Assembly (NCBI RefSeq): GCF_007752535.1
Contig: NZ_CP036426.1
Location: forward strand, 4,960,001-5,024,000
Direction: 5' to 3'
Source of the DNA: Tautonia plasticadhaerens
GTDB lineage: Bacteria; Planctomycetota; Planctomycetia; Isosphaerales; Isosphaeraceae
DNA: 64,000 nt
The notes beneath the pieces were generated by a model, which was not told the DNA's origin, searched no databases, and saw only the letters and a program-made list of their open reading frames with translations. This document shows positions 30,452 through 37,469 of the stretch, in pieces. A program made the position numbers and the translations under genes. Every line of letters starts with the position of its first letter. Position 1 is the first letter of the stretch.

Positions 30452-31577
30452 TACTGACACCACCACGGCGAACTGAACGGTCGGGCGGCGATGTTCGTAG
30501 TATGGGCATGAGACCCATCGGGACCGCCGAAGAACTCGAACGCCGTCGTCGCAGGGCCGTGGAGCTGGTCAAGTGGGGGGAGTCGCCCTCCAAGGTCGCC
30601 TACTTCTTGGGTTGCGGTCGCTCCTCGGTCTACACCTGGCTCAAAGCCGAGCGGGAGGCCCCCGAGACGCTGGCCGCCAGGCCGCATCCCGGCCCGCCGC
30701 CCCGGCTCTCCGACGAGCAGATCGGGGAGTTGGAGGGCCTGCTCCTGAAGGGGTCCAGGGCCCACGGCTGGCCCAACGACCTCTGGAGCGCCCACCGGGT
30801 CGCCGAGGTCATCCGCCGCCATTTCGGCGTCAGCTACCACGTCGAGCACGTCCGCAAGCTGATCCGGCGGCGGCCGAGCTGGAGCAGCCAGAGGCCGCAG
30901 AAGAAGGCCCGGCAGCGGAACGAGGCGAAGACCACCAACTGAAGGGCCAAGGAGCTGCCACGGATCATCCGGGAGGCCGACGCCCGCAAGGCGCACCTGG
31001 TGTTCCTCGACGAGTCGGGCTTCCAGCTCTCGCCGGTGGTGCGCCGCACTTACGCCCCGAGGGGCAAGACGCCGATCGTCGAGGCGTGGCACCGCAAGGG
31101 GCTCATCTCGGCCATCAGCGCCGTGACCGTCAGCCCGGTGCAACGTCGGCCCAACCTGTACTTCCGCCTGCTGCCGGACAATGCCAACGCCCATGGCAGG
31201 GACACGACGGCCTTCCTGGCCCAGCTGCGGGGCGAGCTTCGAAACCCGATGTCGGTCCTCTGGGACTAGAGCAAGATCCACGAGCGATTGTCGGTGGTGA
31301 AGGAGTACCTGACGAGGCACCCGGAGATCCTCACCGAGGACTTCCCCGGCTACGCCCCCGAGGCCAATCCCGACGAGGGGGCCTGGGGCTGGACGAAGTA
31401 CCACCGGCTGCCGAACTACGCCCCCGAGGACACGGCGGACCTTCGGTCCCACCTGTGGGCGGAGTTGTCGTTGTTGCGGGAGCGGTGTGATCTGCTCGCC
31501 TCCTTCATCCGGCACGCCGAGATACCCATCCCGCTCCGATTGTAGGGCCCGTCTCGTTTGCCGTGCTGGTGTTAGTA
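30452..31577 (+). mobile_element. IS630-family element (inactive)
   Basis: Imperfect terminal repeats: the left end reads TACTGACACCACCACGGCGA, and the right end, reverse-complemented, reads TACTAACACCAGCACGGCAA. The outer TA on each side fits the TA target duplication of the IS630/Tc1 group. The element encloses the broken transposase at 30502-31545. Confidence 0.85.
30502..31545 (+). pseudogene. IS630-family transposase with two in-frame stops
   Basis: One continuous frame of about 347 codons is interrupted by TGA at 30940-30942 and TAG at 31267-31269. The first third is a helix-turn-helix region (VELVKWGESPSKVAYFLGCG). The DDE part follows with LVFLDESGFQLSP (first Asp), VLWD just before the TAG (second Asp) and APEANPDEGAW (Glu). 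Apart from the two stops the frame is undamaged, so inactivation looks recent. Read-through at both codons is a remote alternative. Confidence 0.85.
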
Positions 31578-31583
31578 AAAGCC

Positions 31584-32476
31584 CTAACAGAGTTAGCCAA
31601 CGAGGCTCGTGGTATGCGACCGATGCGGGCATCGATCCGTCGTCCGCTCGGAGCCCTCGCCATGGCCAAGCCGCTCTTGCCCGACGCTTCGTGGGACCGC
31701 ATCCGGCCGCTGCCGCCGCCGCCGGAGCCCAAGCGACCCGACCGACCGGGGCGGAAGCGGCTCCACGACCGCCGCTGCCTCGTCGGCATCTTGCTCGTCC
31801 TCAGGACGGGCATCCCCCGGGAGGACCAGCCGATGGAGATGGGCTGCGGCTCGGGCATGGCCTGCTGGCGGCACCTGGGGTACTGGACACGATGCGGCGT
31901 CTGGCGCCGGCTGCACGAGCTGCTGCTGGCCGAGCTGGAGTACGCCGGGCAGATCGACTGGGAGCGCGCCGCCGTCGACAGCGCCTCGCTGCGTGCCCGC
32001 GGCGGGGGCGAGGCGACCGGCCCGAGCCCGGTGGGCCGCCGCAAGAAGGGGAGCAAGCACTTCGCCGTCGTCGACGGGGGCGGCAAGCCGCTGGCGACGC
32101 GGACCACCGCGGCGAACCGGCCGGACGTCTCGGAGTTGAAGGGGTCGGTGGACGCGGTACCGCCGGTGCGCGGCAAGCGGGGCCGGCCGCGGCGGCGGCC
32201 CGACGCGATGGACGCCGATCGCGGCTCCGACTCGAAGGCCCACCGACGGGGCCTGCCTCGGCGCGGGCTCACGCCGCGGTTCGCCCGGCGCGGCACGCCG
32301 CACGGCAGCGGTCTGGGCGAGGTCCGCTGGGTGGTGGAGCGGACGTTGTCCTGGTTGTTCACTTCGGCCGCCTTAGCGTGAGGAGAGACCGCTCGGCGGG
32401 GGTCCACCAGGGGTTCGTCGACCTGGCGGCCTCGATCATCTGCTTCAGGCAGCTACCCGAAGGTCAACTCTGTTAG
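31584..32476 (+). mobile_element. IS5-family element (frameshifted)
   Basis: The ends carry CTAACAGAGTT (31584-31594) and the inverted AACTCTGTTAG (32466-32476). It lies only six bases from the right end of the preceding IS630. Its right terminus abuts the IS701-like element, whose TTAG target duplication overlaps the last bases. Confidence 0.75.
31662..32476 (+). pseudogene. IS5-family transposase, frameshifted near its end
   Basis: Starts at ATG 31662 (MAKPLLPDASWDRIRPLP). The DDE core is present: AAVDSASLRARGGGEATGPS (first Asp), DADRGSDS (second Asp) and VRWVVERTLSW (Glu). Just after the Glu, near 32352-32362, the frame runs out of register and stops at 32381. The expected ending (HFGRLSVRRDRSAG...SIICFRQL) continues in another frame to a TAG inside the terminal repeat. 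It is probably inactive. Confidence 0.8.
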
Positions 32477-32478
32477 TA

Positions 32479-32780
32479 CTACTCCGTTAGTATCTGGGGT
32501 GGCGAATCGGTGAGCCCCCGACAGTAGGGGCAATCATGCCGGCAGATCGGGGCCAGCAGCCGCTGCAACGCCCGCCGGATCGACGGCAGCGTGATCACCG
32601 GACCTCGGCGCCCCCCTCTTTGCCCGGCCGGGATCGCTCCCGACGGGCTCGTCGCTGTTCCGATGCCAGGAAGCCGTAGGCCAGCATCACCAGGCAGGCG
32701 TGGTGGTGGAAGCCCCGCCAGGAGCGGCCCTCGAAGTGATCCAGGCCCAACTCCTCCTTCATCTGCTGGTAGCCCTGCTC
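32479..32780 (-). pseudogene. 3' fragment of the split IS701-like transposase
   Basis: Encodes the C-terminal part: [20 protein letters not shown] with the catalytic Glu region, then [19 protein letters not shown], ending in frame 0 with a TGA at 32595-32597. In the -1 frame the tail continues TLPSIRRALQRLLAPIC and HDCPYCRGL to the stop at 32479. The 5' remainder is at 35294-36379, 2.5 kb away. Confidence 0.85.
32610..32616 (-). promoter_or_regulatory. Candidate -1 frameshift heptamer (split copy)
   Basis: On the minus strand the frame-0 codons read GAG GGG GGC, giving the slippery heptamer G_GGG_GGC, five codons before the frame-0 TGA. The same heptamer is in the complete copy at 42877-42883. 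Confidence 0.5.
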
Positions 32781-32816
32781 GATGTTCCAGCCATAATGCC
32801 CTCCAAGAGCGCGATG

Positions 32817-32849
32817 GGGCGGCCCGGCTCGCCCTGAGCCGGGCCGCCC
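32817..32849 (-). terminator. Hairpin just after the serine recombinase gene
   Basis: Perfect 14-bp arms GGGCGGCCCGGCTC (32817-32830) and GAGCCGGGCCGCCC (32836-32849) enclose the loop GCCCT. It begins five bases past the recombinase stop codon. It is probably a terminator, though a role at the element end is possible. Confidence 0.65.
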
Positions 32850-32854
32850 TCACT

Positions 32855-34972
32855 CTACCGTCCCGGGCGCGGCCTCGGTCTGGTCAGTTCGGCAAGCCGC
32901 CCCTTGTTCGCCCACGTCCGCGGCAGCCGGCGGAGCTCGCGCAGCCGCCGCAGCTCGGACCCGTCGGCCCAGATCACGTGGTGGCCCTGGGCGTCGCGAT
33001 GCGCCGTCAACCACCCGACCCGCACCCATCGCCGCACCGTGTCTCGCGACACCCCCAGCCGACGCGCCAGCGACGACGGCCGGTATTCGTCGCGGCCGAG
33101 GCCGGCCGGGCTGCCGAAGGGCGTGCGGGCCAGCCCCAGGTGCCAGAGCAGCCGTTGCACCATCCCCCGCGTGAACCGCTCGGCCCGCTTCGGGGGACGG
33201 AACCCCTCGACGTTGAGCCGCTCGGCCATCGCCGCCGGGCTGAGCCGCTCGGCGCGCCATCCCCGCAGTCGCTCGACCAGTCGGGGGTAGTCGGCCAGGA
33301 GGTCGTACCGCTTCACCGGCCGGGACATGGCGTGCGACTCGGTCATGCCGCCGGACCAGTGGAGCGTCACATCGACCCGCTCGCTCGCCTTGTCCACGGT
33401 GACGGACACGTGGTCAATCAGGAGTCGGGCGATCCGCTGCCGCTCGGCGGGCGTCGTCGTCGTCGCCTGCCACACCGCCGGCAAGTCGCCGGCCAGCGAC
33501 CGGATCGTCCGCTCGTCGTCCGGTGAGAGCCGACCGGGGGCCGACCCCCGCCACCGCTCGTGCTCGTCCTCGAGGCGCCGCTGCGCCCTCAACGCCTCCT
33601 CCCAGCGCCGCTCCAACTCGCGGCCGACCAGGCGATTCTCCGGCTCGCAGGCCTGGTACTGCCGGGCCGCGCGGTCGGCCTCGCAGCCGGCGCGTTCGAG
33701 GCGGAGCCGCCAGTGCCGGGCCAGCTCGGACCGCTCGCGCTCGACCTCGGCCACCGCCGCCAAGCTCGCCTCCAGCGCCGCCGGCTCCACCGCCGCCAGG
33801 ACCCGGCCGGCGACCAGCCCGTCGAGCGCCGGCCCGGAGAGGCTCTGGCAGATCGGCTCGGCGTGGTCGGCCGCCCCGCGGGCACAGGTGTAGCTGTACC
33901 GGCCCGTCGCCCCCGAGTACCGCACGAGCATCCGCCGGCCGCACCGCCCGCACCGCAGGAGTCCGGCCAGCAGCGAGGCCCCCTGCCGCGGCGCGCCGGG
34001 GCGGTCCCGGCGGGCCCGGTTGGCCTCCAGCCGCTCCTGGTTGTCACAGAACCGCTCCCAGGTGATGTAGGCCGGCAGCCGGTCGCGGATCAGCACCAGG
34101 CACTCCTCCGGGCGGCGGACCAGCTTGCCGGTGTCGGGCCGCCCGGGCCGCTTGCGCCGCGGGTCGACCTCCCGGTGGCCGAACCGGTAGGCACCGGCGT
34201 AGGCCGGGTGGTGCAGGACGTTCGACAGCGTCGGGCGGTTCGGCCGCCGCCACTCCAACCCGCCGCGGTTGGGGCCGTGGCGGGGTCGGATCGGGATGCG
34301 GACCCCGTGGTGGACCAGGTAGCGGAGCAGGCCGTGCAGGGTACCCTCGCGGTCGAACCGGTCGAAGATCAGCCGCACGGTCGCCTGGACCTGCTCGTCG
34401 GGGTCGATCGCCCACTCGCCCGAGGCGAGGCGTACGTAGCCCAGCGGCGGGGAGCCCATCGGCTCGCCCCGGCGGGCCTTGTTGAGCCGGCCCTGGCACA
34501 TCCGCTCCTTGATGACATGAAGTTCTGCCTCGTTCAACATGCCGTGCAGGCCCAGCAGGAGCCTGTCGTTGTGGTCGGCCGGGTCGTAGACGGCGTCGGC
34601 GTCGGCCAGGAGCACGCGGAAGCGGGCGCAGAGCTCGAGCAGCTGGTGCCAGTCGCGGTTGGACCGGGCCAGCCGGCTCATCTCCAGGCCGAGGATCAGC
34701 CCGACGTTGTCGAGCGCCACCTCGGCCAGCAGCCGCTGGAACCCGGGCCGGCCCTCGATCGACTGGCCGCTCTTGCCCAGGTCGTCGTCGATCGTGGTGA
34801 CGCGGTCCCGTGGCCACCCGAGGGCGACGGCGCGGTCGGCCAGGGCGTACTGCCGGTCGGTGGACTCGCGGTGGTCGAGCACCTGCTGGGGTGTGGATTG
34901 GCGGACGTAGACGAAGGCCGCCCGGTCGAGATGCCAGGGCCGGAGCTTGGGCGAGCGGGTTGCGTCACTCAT
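32855..34972 (-). CDS. Large serine recombinase with C-terminal MerR-like HTH
   Basis: 705 residues. The resolvase catalytic domain (about 15-165) has VYVRQSTPQQ with nucleophile Ser26, and GLEMSRLARSNRDW. The recombinase domain (about 170-300) has PLGYVRLASGEW and LHHPAYAGAYRFGHREVDP. A zinc ribbon (RCGRCGRRMLVRYSG and later Cys) and a coiled-coil-like Arg/Glu-rich stretch follow. Unusually, it adds about 200 residues ending in a MerR-like helix-turn-helix (SSLARRLGVSRDTVRRWVRV). All catalytic residues look intact. It is the presumed mobility gene of the surrounding 2.5-kb element. It starts at ATG 34972, overlapping a small upstream ORF by ATGA. Confidence 0.9.
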   Translation of the reverse strand: MSDATRSPKLRPWHLDRAAFVYVRQSTPQQVLDHRESTDRQYALADRAVALGWPRDRVTTIDDDLGKSGQSIEGRPGFQRLLAEVALDNVGLILGLEMSRLARSNRDWHQLLELCARFRVLLADADAVYDPADHNDRLLLGLHGMLNEAELHVIKERMCQGRLNKARRGEPMGSPPLGYVRLASGEWAIDPDEQVQATVRLIFDRFDREGTLHGLLRYLVHHGVRIPIRPRHGPNRGGLEWRRPNRPTLSNVLHHPAYAGAYRFGHREVDPRRKRPGRPDTGKLVRRPEECLVLIRDRLPAYITWERFCDNQERLEANRARRDRPGAPRQGASLLAGLLRCGRCGRRMLVRYSGATGRYSYTCARGAADHAEPICQSLSGPALDGLVAGRVLAAVEPAALEASLAAVAEVERERSELARHWRLRLERAGCEADRAARQYQACEPENRLVGRELERRWEEALRAQRRLEDEHERWRGSAPGRLSPDDERTIRSLAGDLPAVWQATTTTPAERQRIARLLIDHVSVTVDKASERVDVTLHWSGGMTESHAMSRPVKRYDLLADYPRLVERLRGWRAERLSPAAMAERLNVEGFRPPKRAERFTRGMVQRLLWHLGLARTPFGSPAGLGRDEYRPSSLARRLGVSRDTVRRWVRVGWLTAHRDAQGHHVIWADGSELRRLRELRRLPRTWANKGRLAELTRPRPRPGR

Positions 34973-35250
34973 GGCCGGCCTCCTCGCTTCGGGTGGCCGC
35001 CAGGAGCCTGGCGAGGAGTTGGCCGAGCAGGTCGCGGAGCTGTCGCTGCCGGTCGGCCGGCAGGCGGGCCCAGATCGTCGGTGCGACCGTCGGCGGTGGG
35101 CAGGGCGCCGTCGTCAGGCGCGGGGGGGAGCGTTGTGACGGGGGGCGACGGACATGCGATGTCTCCCGATGCCGAGGTCAGGTGATGTCGGCACCACGCC
35201 GCCAGCTCAAGCAGCGCGGCGGCGCTGATCGTAACCGCCGCCGGGGGTGC
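34965..35250 (-). pseudogene. Small ORF upstream of serine recombinase, frame uncertain
   Basis: Two frames carry protein-like sequence. The first reads TISAAALLELAAWCRHHLT near 35170-35240. After a change of frame the second reads TIWARLPADRQRQLRDLLGQ and LLARLLAATRSEEAGHE, ending in a TGA inside the recombinase start (34965). Neither frame has a clear ATG start. This suggests an accessory gene of the element broken by a frameshift around 35050-35110, or translated with a shift. The function is unknown. Confidence 0.4.
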
Positions 35251-35293
35251 TGCACCACCGGTCGCTTGAGGTGCAGTCTGCTTGGCACGTCTC

Positions 35294-36379
35294 CACCGGC
35301 CAGCGGCTCTTCCAGAGCCGCACCGCCTTGATCCGGCTAGTCCGTGGCGGCAAGTTGCTGACGGCATACTTGATCTTCCCGTCGGCCTGCTCCTCGATCA
35401 ACAACCGCACCGGCTCTGCCCCGACGCACTCGCCGGTGGCCCAGCCGGACGCCGGCCAGACCCGAAGCCAGGCGAAGCGACCCGACAGCTTGCCCTTGGT
35501 CCCCTCACGCCACGTCCCCTTGTGCCGCGGCGTCCTCGCGGCCAATTCCTTCAAGTTCATCGGCCGCGGCGCGCCCTCGGCCAGGCGATGCCGCTTGCGC
35601 GGTCGGCCGCCCGTGCCGGCCTTCGGCTCCTCCCAACTCGGCGGCGCGGTGAAGCCGACCAGCTCGTCGGTGACCCCGACGATGTACCGCAGCCGCCGCT
35701 GCTCCAGGCCGTCGCGGAAGTCGCCCGAGACGCCGTAGCCGGCGTCGGCCACGACGAAGCGGCCCGGCAGGCCCTCGGCACGCACCCGGTCGAGCAACTC
35801 CAGGGCGATCTGCCCCTTGCTCAGCGGGCGGCGTTCGGGCTCGGGTACGCCGGCCTCGTCGAGCCGCTCCTCGTCGCCCAGCCAGCGTCCCGGCAGGTAG
35901 AGCCGCATCGCCAGCGGGCAGTGGCCCTCGGGGCTGACGTAGCGGACCGAGGGGGCCACCTGGCAGTTGGCCCGCTTGCCCAACGCGCCGCAATACTGCC
36001 GCTGGACCCCGACGGAGTGCTTGCCCTGCTCGGGGAAGCTGGTGTCGTCGAAGACGAAGATGCCCCTCGGCGAGGCGAAGGCCTCGGCCATGACGGCGCG
36101 ATGGCGCCTCCAGACATCCCGCTCGTCCCAGGCGGCCTGGTTGACGAACTGCTGCAGGGCCTGCTCGGGGTCGGCGACGTCCAGGCCGGCGGGCAGGGCG
36201 ACGCGTCGGGAGAGGGGCTCGATGCTCTTGCGTTCGCCGTCGATGAGCAGGCCGTGGAGATAGACGTGGGCCCAGGCGGCCTGCCGGGCGCGGGCGAAGT
36301 CGGGCCGGAACCGGGCGGCGTAGGCGTCGAGGCGTTGCAGGACGTCGGGGGGAAGTTCGGGGGTGTAGGTCTTGCTCAT
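35294..36379 (-). pseudogene. 5' fragment of the split IS701-like transposase
   Basis: Starts MSKTYTPELPPDVLQRLDAY at ATG 36379. It contains the first catalytic Asp region (VFDDTSFPEQGKHSVGVQRQ) and the second (VVADAGYGVSGDFRDG), and ends at RLWKSRWPVE, where the inserted element begins. The frame runs on as junk to a stop at 35207. The catalytic Glu and C-terminus are on the other fragment (32479-32780), so no active protein can be made. Confidence 0.9.
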
Positions 36380-36436
36380 ACCTCACGGTACGAACAAACC
36401 GCCTCGATCGTTCCGTAGAACCCAACGGAGTAGTAT

Positions 36437-37376
36437 TAGTAACTATATTAATAGCGTCATGCGGCCCTGATCCGGTGGAGCCTCCGGTACCAGAGCAAGC
36501 CGCAGGCCGGTTGGATCAGGCCGAGGGAGTTCTCCTCATGCTCGTCGTAGCGGACCAGCAGCCCCCGACACTTCGACAGCCAGGCCAGCGCCCGCTCCAC
36601 CACCCAGCGGCGGGCCTTCCGCCGGCCCGGCCGCCGCTCCGGGCGGGGTCCGCCACGGGCCGGACGGATGTGGGGGACATACCCATGCCCCTCGGCCACC
36701 CCACGAGCCGGTCCGTTGTCATACCCGGCGTCCAGGCACAGGTGCTGCTCGACCTGCTCGGGGTCGGGCCGCTCGGTCACCACCGCACGGATCGTCGCCT
36801 CCAGCAGCGTGAAGTCCGGGGCGTTGGCCCCGGCGATGACCACGCCCAGCGGCCCGCCGTCGCCCTCGACCAGCAGGCCCTGCTTGGTCCCCGGCTTGGC
36901 CCGGTCGGTCGGGTCGGGGCCCGTCTGTTTCCCCCCCGAACCGGGCCTTGCCCGGCCGCCCGTCGGCCGCCTGCCACCGCCATTGGACCTCGCCCAGCTC
37001 GTCGCACTCCTCGACCAGCAGGGCCCGGATCCGCTCGAAGACGCCGTGGCGGCACCGCCGCTGGGACCAGCGGTGCACCGGGCTGTCGTCGCCATACTCC
37101 CTGGGCAGCGTGTGCCACTGGCAGCCGCTGCGGGGGCGGGAGATGATGCCGTCGAAGGCCGCCCGCCAGTCGATCCGGCCCCGGCCGCCGTGCTCCTCGG
37201 GCGGCGGCGGGGCGTCTTCGAGCAGGATCGGCTCGATCCGCTCCCAGAGGGCGTCGGGCACCTCCCAGATGGTCTCCAGCGGCTTGACCCCTCGACTCTT
37301 CCGTCCCATGGCTGCGTCTCCTGAGGTGATCGCCCCGCCCCCTCAAGGTACGCAGCCGGTTCGGGTTAGATACTAT
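36437..37376 (-). mobile_element. IS5-family element with two overlapping frames
   Basis: The boundaries are approximate. A weak repeat TAGTAACTA at 36437 and TAGTATCTA (inverted) ending near 37376 are the best end candidates. It encloses the IS5-type transposase 36457-37309. The left side adjoins the TTAG duplication of the IS701-like element. Confidence 0.5.
36457..37309 (-). pseudogene. IS5-family transposase in two frames (orfA 36719-37309, orfB 36457-37095)
   Basis: The frame from ATG 37309 (MGRKSRGVKPLETIWEVPDA) covers the N-terminus through WQAADGRPGKARFGG. The rest of the DDE domain is in another frame: GPDPTDRAKPGTKQGLLVEG, HLCLDAGYDNG (second Asp), RRWVVERALAWLSKCRGLLV (Glu). The switch falls in a run of seven G on the minus strand (36931-36937); six would restore one frame. 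Either one base was gained in the run, or slippage at the run makes the full protein, as some IS5 relatives do. Confidence 0.75.
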
Positions 37377-37469
37377 GCCCGGAGCGAGCCGGGCGAGTTG
37401 CTGTGAGCCGCCGACATGGCAAGCTCCAGGAGGGGGGTTAGCAGGTCCCTCGGATACGGAGTCTTTACC
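37377..37469 (+). ncRNA. Possible IS110 bridge-RNA region
   Basis: This noncoding leader immediately precedes the IS110 transposase. It begins with a perfect six-base hairpin (GCCCGG at 37377-37382, loop AGCGAG, CCGGGC at 37389-37394). IS110-group elements are known to encode a structured bridge RNA in a noncoding end that pairs with donor and target DNA. I cannot fold or align it, so this is a location-based suggestion. Confidence 0.3.

Follow-up and report, generated by a model that had tools for sequence, protein, structure and literature searches.

What is the 2.5-kb block with one large serine recombinase that lies inside an insertion sequence (IS) of Tautonia plasticadhaerens, and is its position there an accident? 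The block was found in a 64,000-nucleotide stretch of the genome, referred to here as the window. A sequence-only reading of the window had described it as a mobile element caught inside another IS. That it sits inside an IS holds, but it is no mere catch: the family to which it belongs inserts at the codon for the catalytic glutamate of DDE transposases.

The element and its ends

The outer IS701-like element is flanked by TTAG on both sides, and joining the flanks of the insert restores one open transposase frame, split between WPV[E] and QGYQQ. CTC stands on the plus strand at both junctions (32778-32780 and 35291-35293). The element limits, split point, CTC and target duplication given in the sequence-only reading were all exact on re-examination. 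The main features are as follows.

~32477..36435, minus strand: outer IS701-like element, with the TTAG duplication at 32473-32476 and 36436-36439
35291..36379, minus strand: upstream half of the split IS701-like transposase, to the catalytic Glu codon
32595..32780, minus strand: downstream half of the split transposase
32781..35293, minus strand: whole element, 2,513 bp including one shared GAG copy (left end); the same block occurs in 13 genomic copies
32778..32780, minus strand: second shared GAG copy (CTC on the plus strand), first codon of the downstream transposase half
32855..34972, minus strand: large serine recombinase, 705 aa, Ser26 (ORF, Pfam, alignment)
32817..32849, minus strand: hairpin with a 14-bp stem between recombinase stop and right end (z = -5.3), present in relatives too
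35228..35258, minus strand: possible promoter-like pair within the left end, recognised by eye in several relatives

The 9.4-Mb genome (G000) holds 13 copies that are base-identical over 2,513 bp, each starting with GAG and followed by GAG after its end, and the recombinase gene is intact in all of them with 100% amino-acid identity. At G000:C1:2019474-2019695 lies an outer IS without the insert; it is identical to the joined flanks over 222 bp and holds a single GAG, so that the duplication is limited to the shared bases; uninterrupted outer-IS copies at 83-88% identity are numerous in the same genome. With a length of 2,513 bp, mobility functions only and 13 copies with common ends, the block is an insertion sequence in the broad sense. 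As judged from these copies, the element is a free-standing minimal serine-recombinase unit with the short shared core GAG, within which crossover probably takes place at GA. The earlier suggestion of a minimal unit with a short crossover sequence is thus borne out: further copies, identical ends and the empty site were all found, with no larger element among them. A prophage or ICE remnant is excluded by the 13 identical copies; matches to the listed phage records are partial, covering 36-45% of the query, with identities of about 24-30%.

The 705 residues, the Ser26 and the C-terminal MerR-like helix-turn-helix (HTH) of the recombinase were recovered as first described, as was the hairpin. 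Above cut-off, Pfam matches comprised Resolvase (PF00239), Recombinase (PF07508) and the zinc ribbon (PF13408), and the HTH/MerR-like match covers residues 630-665; the scan gave no match to DUF4368 at E up to 0.1. S26 in VYVRQS is invariant across 13 relatives. Curated NCBIfam models for XisF (fdxN; 83.6 bits vs a cut-off of 375) and CcrC (SCCmec; 63.5 vs 900) and the IS607 model (16.5 vs 110) stayed below threshold, the TnpX catalytic domain matched weakly (E = 3e-4), and among solved relatives the SPbeta recombinase YokA is the closest in sequence. The large-serine-recombinase (LSR) domain set and a short shared core are both present. The enzyme would convert attP and attB into attL and attR.

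Relatives of about 43-77% identity were drawn from 99 related genomes and 80 named loci (Planctomycetota, Cyanobacteriota, Actinomycetota, Pseudomonadota, Myxococcota, SAR324, Chloroflexota and others), their ends being located by the RBS-ATG pattern at the right end or by split flanks; elements whose ends could be resolved are 2,437-2,632 bp long. Singulisphaera acidiphila DSM 18658 carries one such relative in four identical copies. Several relatives show, by eye, a similarly spaced -35/-10-like pair in the left end, within the frame called ORF-A below. Two loci, L034 (G000:C1:5134000-5148000) and L035, hold broken recombinase relatives, with pieces of 36-66% identity and one internal TGA; these adjoin an intact relative of 50% identity and resemble a graveyard of earlier arrivals. 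Window positions 30500-37400 are also crowded with transposase-like frames (30573-31545, 31563-32381, 36457-37309), some apparently broken by frameshifts.

Small frames and the predicted circle junction

The element was at first taken for a strictly single-gene unit. That description was given up when the recombinase start proved to overlap an upstream stop codon and when small overlapping frames upstream, including one that the attachment site divides, proved conserved. The short upstream ORF that had been noted does exist, yet its ATG at 35367 belongs to the outer IS and is partly an accident of the target. The frames are arranged as follows.

32781..32806, minus strand: right end with RBS (GGAGG), ATG at 32792-32794 and the first ORF-A codons as read on a circle; TGGAACATC is the right arm of attP; conserved in relatives
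34969..35292, minus strand: body of ORF-A from codon 6 onward, which lacks its own start codon in the integrated state and has a TGA stop overlapping the ATG of the recombinase
35114..35155, minus strand: ORF-B, a short SD-ATG frame leading into a poly-C run
35122..35128, minus strand: run of seven C at which translation might shift from ORF-B into ORF-C; the run is kept in most planctomycete members and in several others
34965..35129, minus strand: ORF-C frame (..TIWARLPADRQRQLRDLLGQLLARLLAATRSEEAGHE), the constrained frame of this stretch

A candidate recombinase start of the form ATGA (in a few cases GTGA or TTGA) overlaps the ORF-A stop in 91 of 96 loci, duplicates included. Integrated ORF-A has no conserved start. 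When the right end is joined to the left end, as in a circle, one frame is open in 11/11 elements with exact ends, e.g. MAGTSRRAKQTAPQATGG...ALLELAAWCRHH; indels in ORF-A among these elements come in threes, and codon 6 is Arg with either core (GA or TC). Exact ends were available for the window element from its 13 copies and for L071 from four copies. In the others the left end was selected from those candidates that preserved the frame and began with Arg, and was next matched against the split of the transposase; the cases concerned within the 11/11 are therefore not wholly independent of the ORF-A claim.

Constraint was assessed per segment. Frame A has no stops in the first segment and shows dN < dS there in most pairs; in the second it is frame C that is constrained, frame A being merely open. 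An initial description of ORF-A as one continuous conserved protein was revised, since the constraint in its second half sits in frame C. Between the segments, many planctomycete and some other members carry SD-ATG...PPR followed by a run of 6-8 C, and gammaproteobacterial members have no C run. This arrangement suggests a -1 frameshift from ORF-B to ORF-C at the poly-C run.

From these frames we infer that ORF-A would be whole only on the excised circle, with its RBS and start codon supplied by the opposite end of the element. It could instead be no gene at all, the right end being an attP arm that resembles an RBS and start and the open frame a product of chance in GC-rich DNA, where stops are scarce; the lack of constraint on frame A in the second half fits this reading. 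Against it, the circle frame stays open with indels in threes in less GC-rich proteobacterial members as well, the first half is constrained, Arg at codon 6 is kept across both cores, and the overlap of TGA with the recombinase start is maintained across phyla. On balance we consider the absence of a gene unlikely, while giving it some real weight, and prefer ORF-A as a circle-formed frame.

A role of the right-end ATG in re-initiating the transposase remnant was considered and rejected, since relative to the transposase it is out of frame when the insertion is parallel and antisense when it is antiparallel. Matches to the right-end string in viral contigs were likewise set aside, with no recombinase nearby and the look of ordinary gene starts. 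No circle or tandem attP junction was found in 148 genomes, which counts against the proposed circle, although a rare intermediate would be expected to go unseen. In five Streptomyces and Streptacidiphilus loci (L114, L125, L127, L130, L161) the upstream frame is short and resembles ORF-C rather than ORF-A, and recombinases of about 40% identity that are common on rhizobial plasmids (L196, L197, L248) have a short ORF overlapping their start.

Insertion at the catalytic-glutamate codon

Ten of the 13 copies in this genome, across seven different genes, lie in the GAG codon for the catalytic Glu of a DDE transposase (Tn5-, IS4- or IS701-like), and in the intact joined-flank frames the shared GAG encodes the Glu of RWxxE. 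The IS701-like targets read KSRWPV[E]QGYQQMK, RSRWPV[E]LGYQQMK and ATRWLV[E]EDIQSAK (PF13546 where scanned), the Tn5-like target SARWLV[E]EYHKALKTG (PF14706 and PF02281), and the IS4-like targets RARWNN[E]LDLRSIK and ERRWSG[E]VDIRSIK (PF01609). E360 of the Tn5-like target aligns with the Glu of RWRIEEFHK in the Tn5 transposase, the established catalytic residue E326 of that enzyme. The six distinct intact-flank DDE target ORFs contain 31-38 sense GAG triplets each, and the catalytic one was struck in 6/6. The seventh DDE gene is the left flank of a hybrid copy, L029 (RRRWQA[E]), whose left half comes from a different transposase and whose right half is IS701-like, which suggests a product of recombination between two copies. 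The remaining three copies lie outside DDE genes: L021 in a TPR gene, L028 with a DHFR-like gene at its left and an unrelated right flank, and L030.

Relatives contribute about 34 further Glu-codon insertions in at least five phyla, in transposases of six IS families.

IS630: L065 NPI[E], L083 TPI[E]
IS5: L071 and L073 RRRSIV[E]NLIGWLK, L072
ISAs1: L068, L069, L075, L076, L087, L135, L141
IS1380: L098, L151
IS701-like: L033, L094
IS4-like, e.g.: L070, L086, L090, L097, L105, L110, L116-L118, L122, L124, L128, L133, L140; Leptolyngbya copies L102, L143

When several of the targets are aligned to Pfam models, the Glu maps to DDE_Tnp_1 position 164 or close to it; in both IS630 targets it maps to DDE_3 position 123. 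Some family entries are weaker, depending on one flank, a motif recognised by eye or small custom profiles made from these very targets, and the short pieces of L043, L124 and L140 had no Pfam match. Three relatives depart from the pattern: the IS3 case L082 lies about nine codons beyond the catalytic Glu, the IS3 case L144 in the same C-terminal part and also downstream of that residue, and the Sorangium relative L142 in an FG-GAP-like gene. Judged by this set of insertion sites, the family targets the catalytic-Glu codon of DDE transposases specifically. Such targeting appears to be unreported: a literature search, with most subscription journals and preprints outside its reach, found no report of it.

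Core and orientation vary together. In elements with a GA core the recombinase runs parallel to the transposase gene and in those with a TC core antiparallel, so that in every case crossover would fall on GA of the Glu codon. On the tree, parallel cases are mostly planctomycetes (L105 being one from outside) and antiparallel cases mostly proteobacteria, SAR324 and Leptolyngbya. L083 is opposite to the window element in core and orientation at about 70% identity, which makes the core switch fairly recent there.

GAG is the only invariant base set among all sites of the window-type recombinase. The motif CGnTGG-N6-GAG-N18-AAG, the DNA of RWxxE-x6-K, was picked after the targets were known; it occurs 59 times in 9.4 Mb, and its reversed control 16 times. 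By eye, about 47 of these 59 matches are DDE active sites, with the same few ISs accounting for many of them. Protein conservation and DNA recognition are inseparable in these sequences, so the counts show no more than that reading of DNA could be enough for targeting. A partner beyond the DNA, such as a guide RNA, the transposase or its mRNA, could also be imagined, as the sites of one recombinase differ considerably outside GAG and TGG. We hold this to be highly improbable: the search for RNA families in the element found none, and the extended motif already picks mostly DDE sites. Known LSRs, moreover, recognise DNA.

The copies might also have spread mainly as passengers of outer ISs, with a recombinase that is now inactive, and shared outer ISs (one common to the window copy, L026 and L027, another to L023 and L031) agree with this. 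Very little probability attaches to this alternative, since the identical element with identical ends is found in nine or more distinct target genes or locations, more than movement of outer ISs can give, and since its recombinase gene has stayed intact and identical throughout. Insertion at nearly any GAG, with transposase copies being seen because they are harmless and ISs abundant, draws on the IS-rich genome, the lone invariant GAG and the three copies outside DDE genes, but it is largely refuted already and scarcely credible, as harmlessness does not explain why one particular sense GAG was struck in every distinct DDE gene or why relatives strike the same alignment column in unrelated IS families.

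Proposed cycle and comparison with known systems

The best explanation for the whole, which we regard as highly likely, is an element of IS size, mobilised by its own LSR, targeted to the Glu codon of DDE transposases and carrying an ORF-A formed on the circle. The recombinase would excise the element as a circle, leaving an attP junction such as GGAACATC-GA-GACGTG. The predicted attP, TGGAACATC-GA-GACGTGCCA, is nearly palindromic around GA and would be joined to the target at the GA of the Glu codon. Excision, crossover at GA and reintegration would follow from known large-serine-recombinase chemistry, and targeting is probably led by a long degenerate DNA motif, approximately CGnTGG-N6-GAG-N18-AAG for the window member. 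Copies in one common outer IS may also have travelled with that IS, served in trans by an intact transposase. As insertion destroys the transposase active site, the element would in effect be a hyperparasite of ISs, its abundant and dispensable home.

On the circle, the right end would give an RBS and ATG to ORF-A, which would be coupled through ATGA to the recombinase. Circle-only ORF-A may then raise recombinase synthesis or yield a helper protein, favouring reintegration, and integration would split ORF-A and silence it. The hairpin before the right end might stop recombinase transcripts. Lyras and Rood reportedly found in 2000 that the Tn4451 circle forms a promoter for tnpX; here circle formation would create a translation start with an ORF, either in place of a promoter or in addition to one. 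The switch proposed for ORF-A is in line with that report and with circle-specific integrase promoters of ICEs (PMC13023037).

TnpX of Tn4451/Tn4453 is a large serine recombinase that uses a 2-bp target core and excises a circle (PMC3158075). The present element, with a circle that we predict, is likely similar to Tn4451/Tn4453 and Tn6104 in being LSR-run with a short core. Tn4451-type elements, however, carry cargo and mobilisation genes, whereas this one of about 2.5 kb holds the recombinase and small frames with no cargo or mob gene, and its targets are DDE catalytic codons. For the multi-targeting LSR clade, the available text of Durrant et al. (PMC10083194) describes entry into several gene families through a longish degenerate motif and DUF4368 in 63% of members, not all; that text does not report transposase active sites as targets. 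The element here differs in having no DUF4368 match and in targets that have one structural position in common. IS607 shares the IS size and a serine recombinase with a MerR-like domain, and the available account of its transposases gives an inverted domain order and minimal target specificity (PMC4058570). IS607 has a small TnpA with an N-terminal MerR-like domain and usually tnpB; here a 705-aa protein has an N-terminal catalytic domain and a C-terminal HTH, with a codon-specific target and no TnpB. Among group I introns and inteins that carry homing endonucleases, insertion sites often coincide with active-site codons, where DNA is conserved (PMC3943268); these elements splice out and spare the host gene, whereas this element destroys it and moves by recombination, not repair. 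In mycobacteriophage BPs, attP lies inside the repressor gene and integration alters the product (PMC4557955), removing the 3' end with the prophage form active; here the 5' end would be removed and the whole gene would exist only on the circle. LSR transposons, multi-targeting LSRs, IS607 and homing introns are each partly similar, and none has the target rule. There is an appreciable chance that this rule together with a circle-only gene deserves its own class.

We lean, if only slightly, towards a wider interpretation, in which a pan-bacterial class homes to the DDE catalytic codon as DNA, uses its circle-only gene as an integration-state switch and acts as an IS hyperparasite or natural brake. 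Such genes are mostly annotated plainly as 'recombinase family protein', and their targeting behaviour is easily overlooked. The natural set assembled here, with a target that is seemingly a degenerate motif of 30-40 bp and a GA/TC core switch that tracks the orientation of insertion, is useful for studying how LSR specificity evolves, and the circle-only ORF would be a testable switch between integrated and free states. Repeated cutting of the active-site codon in many unrelated DDE transposases would amount to a direct force of IS against IS, parallel to homing introns.
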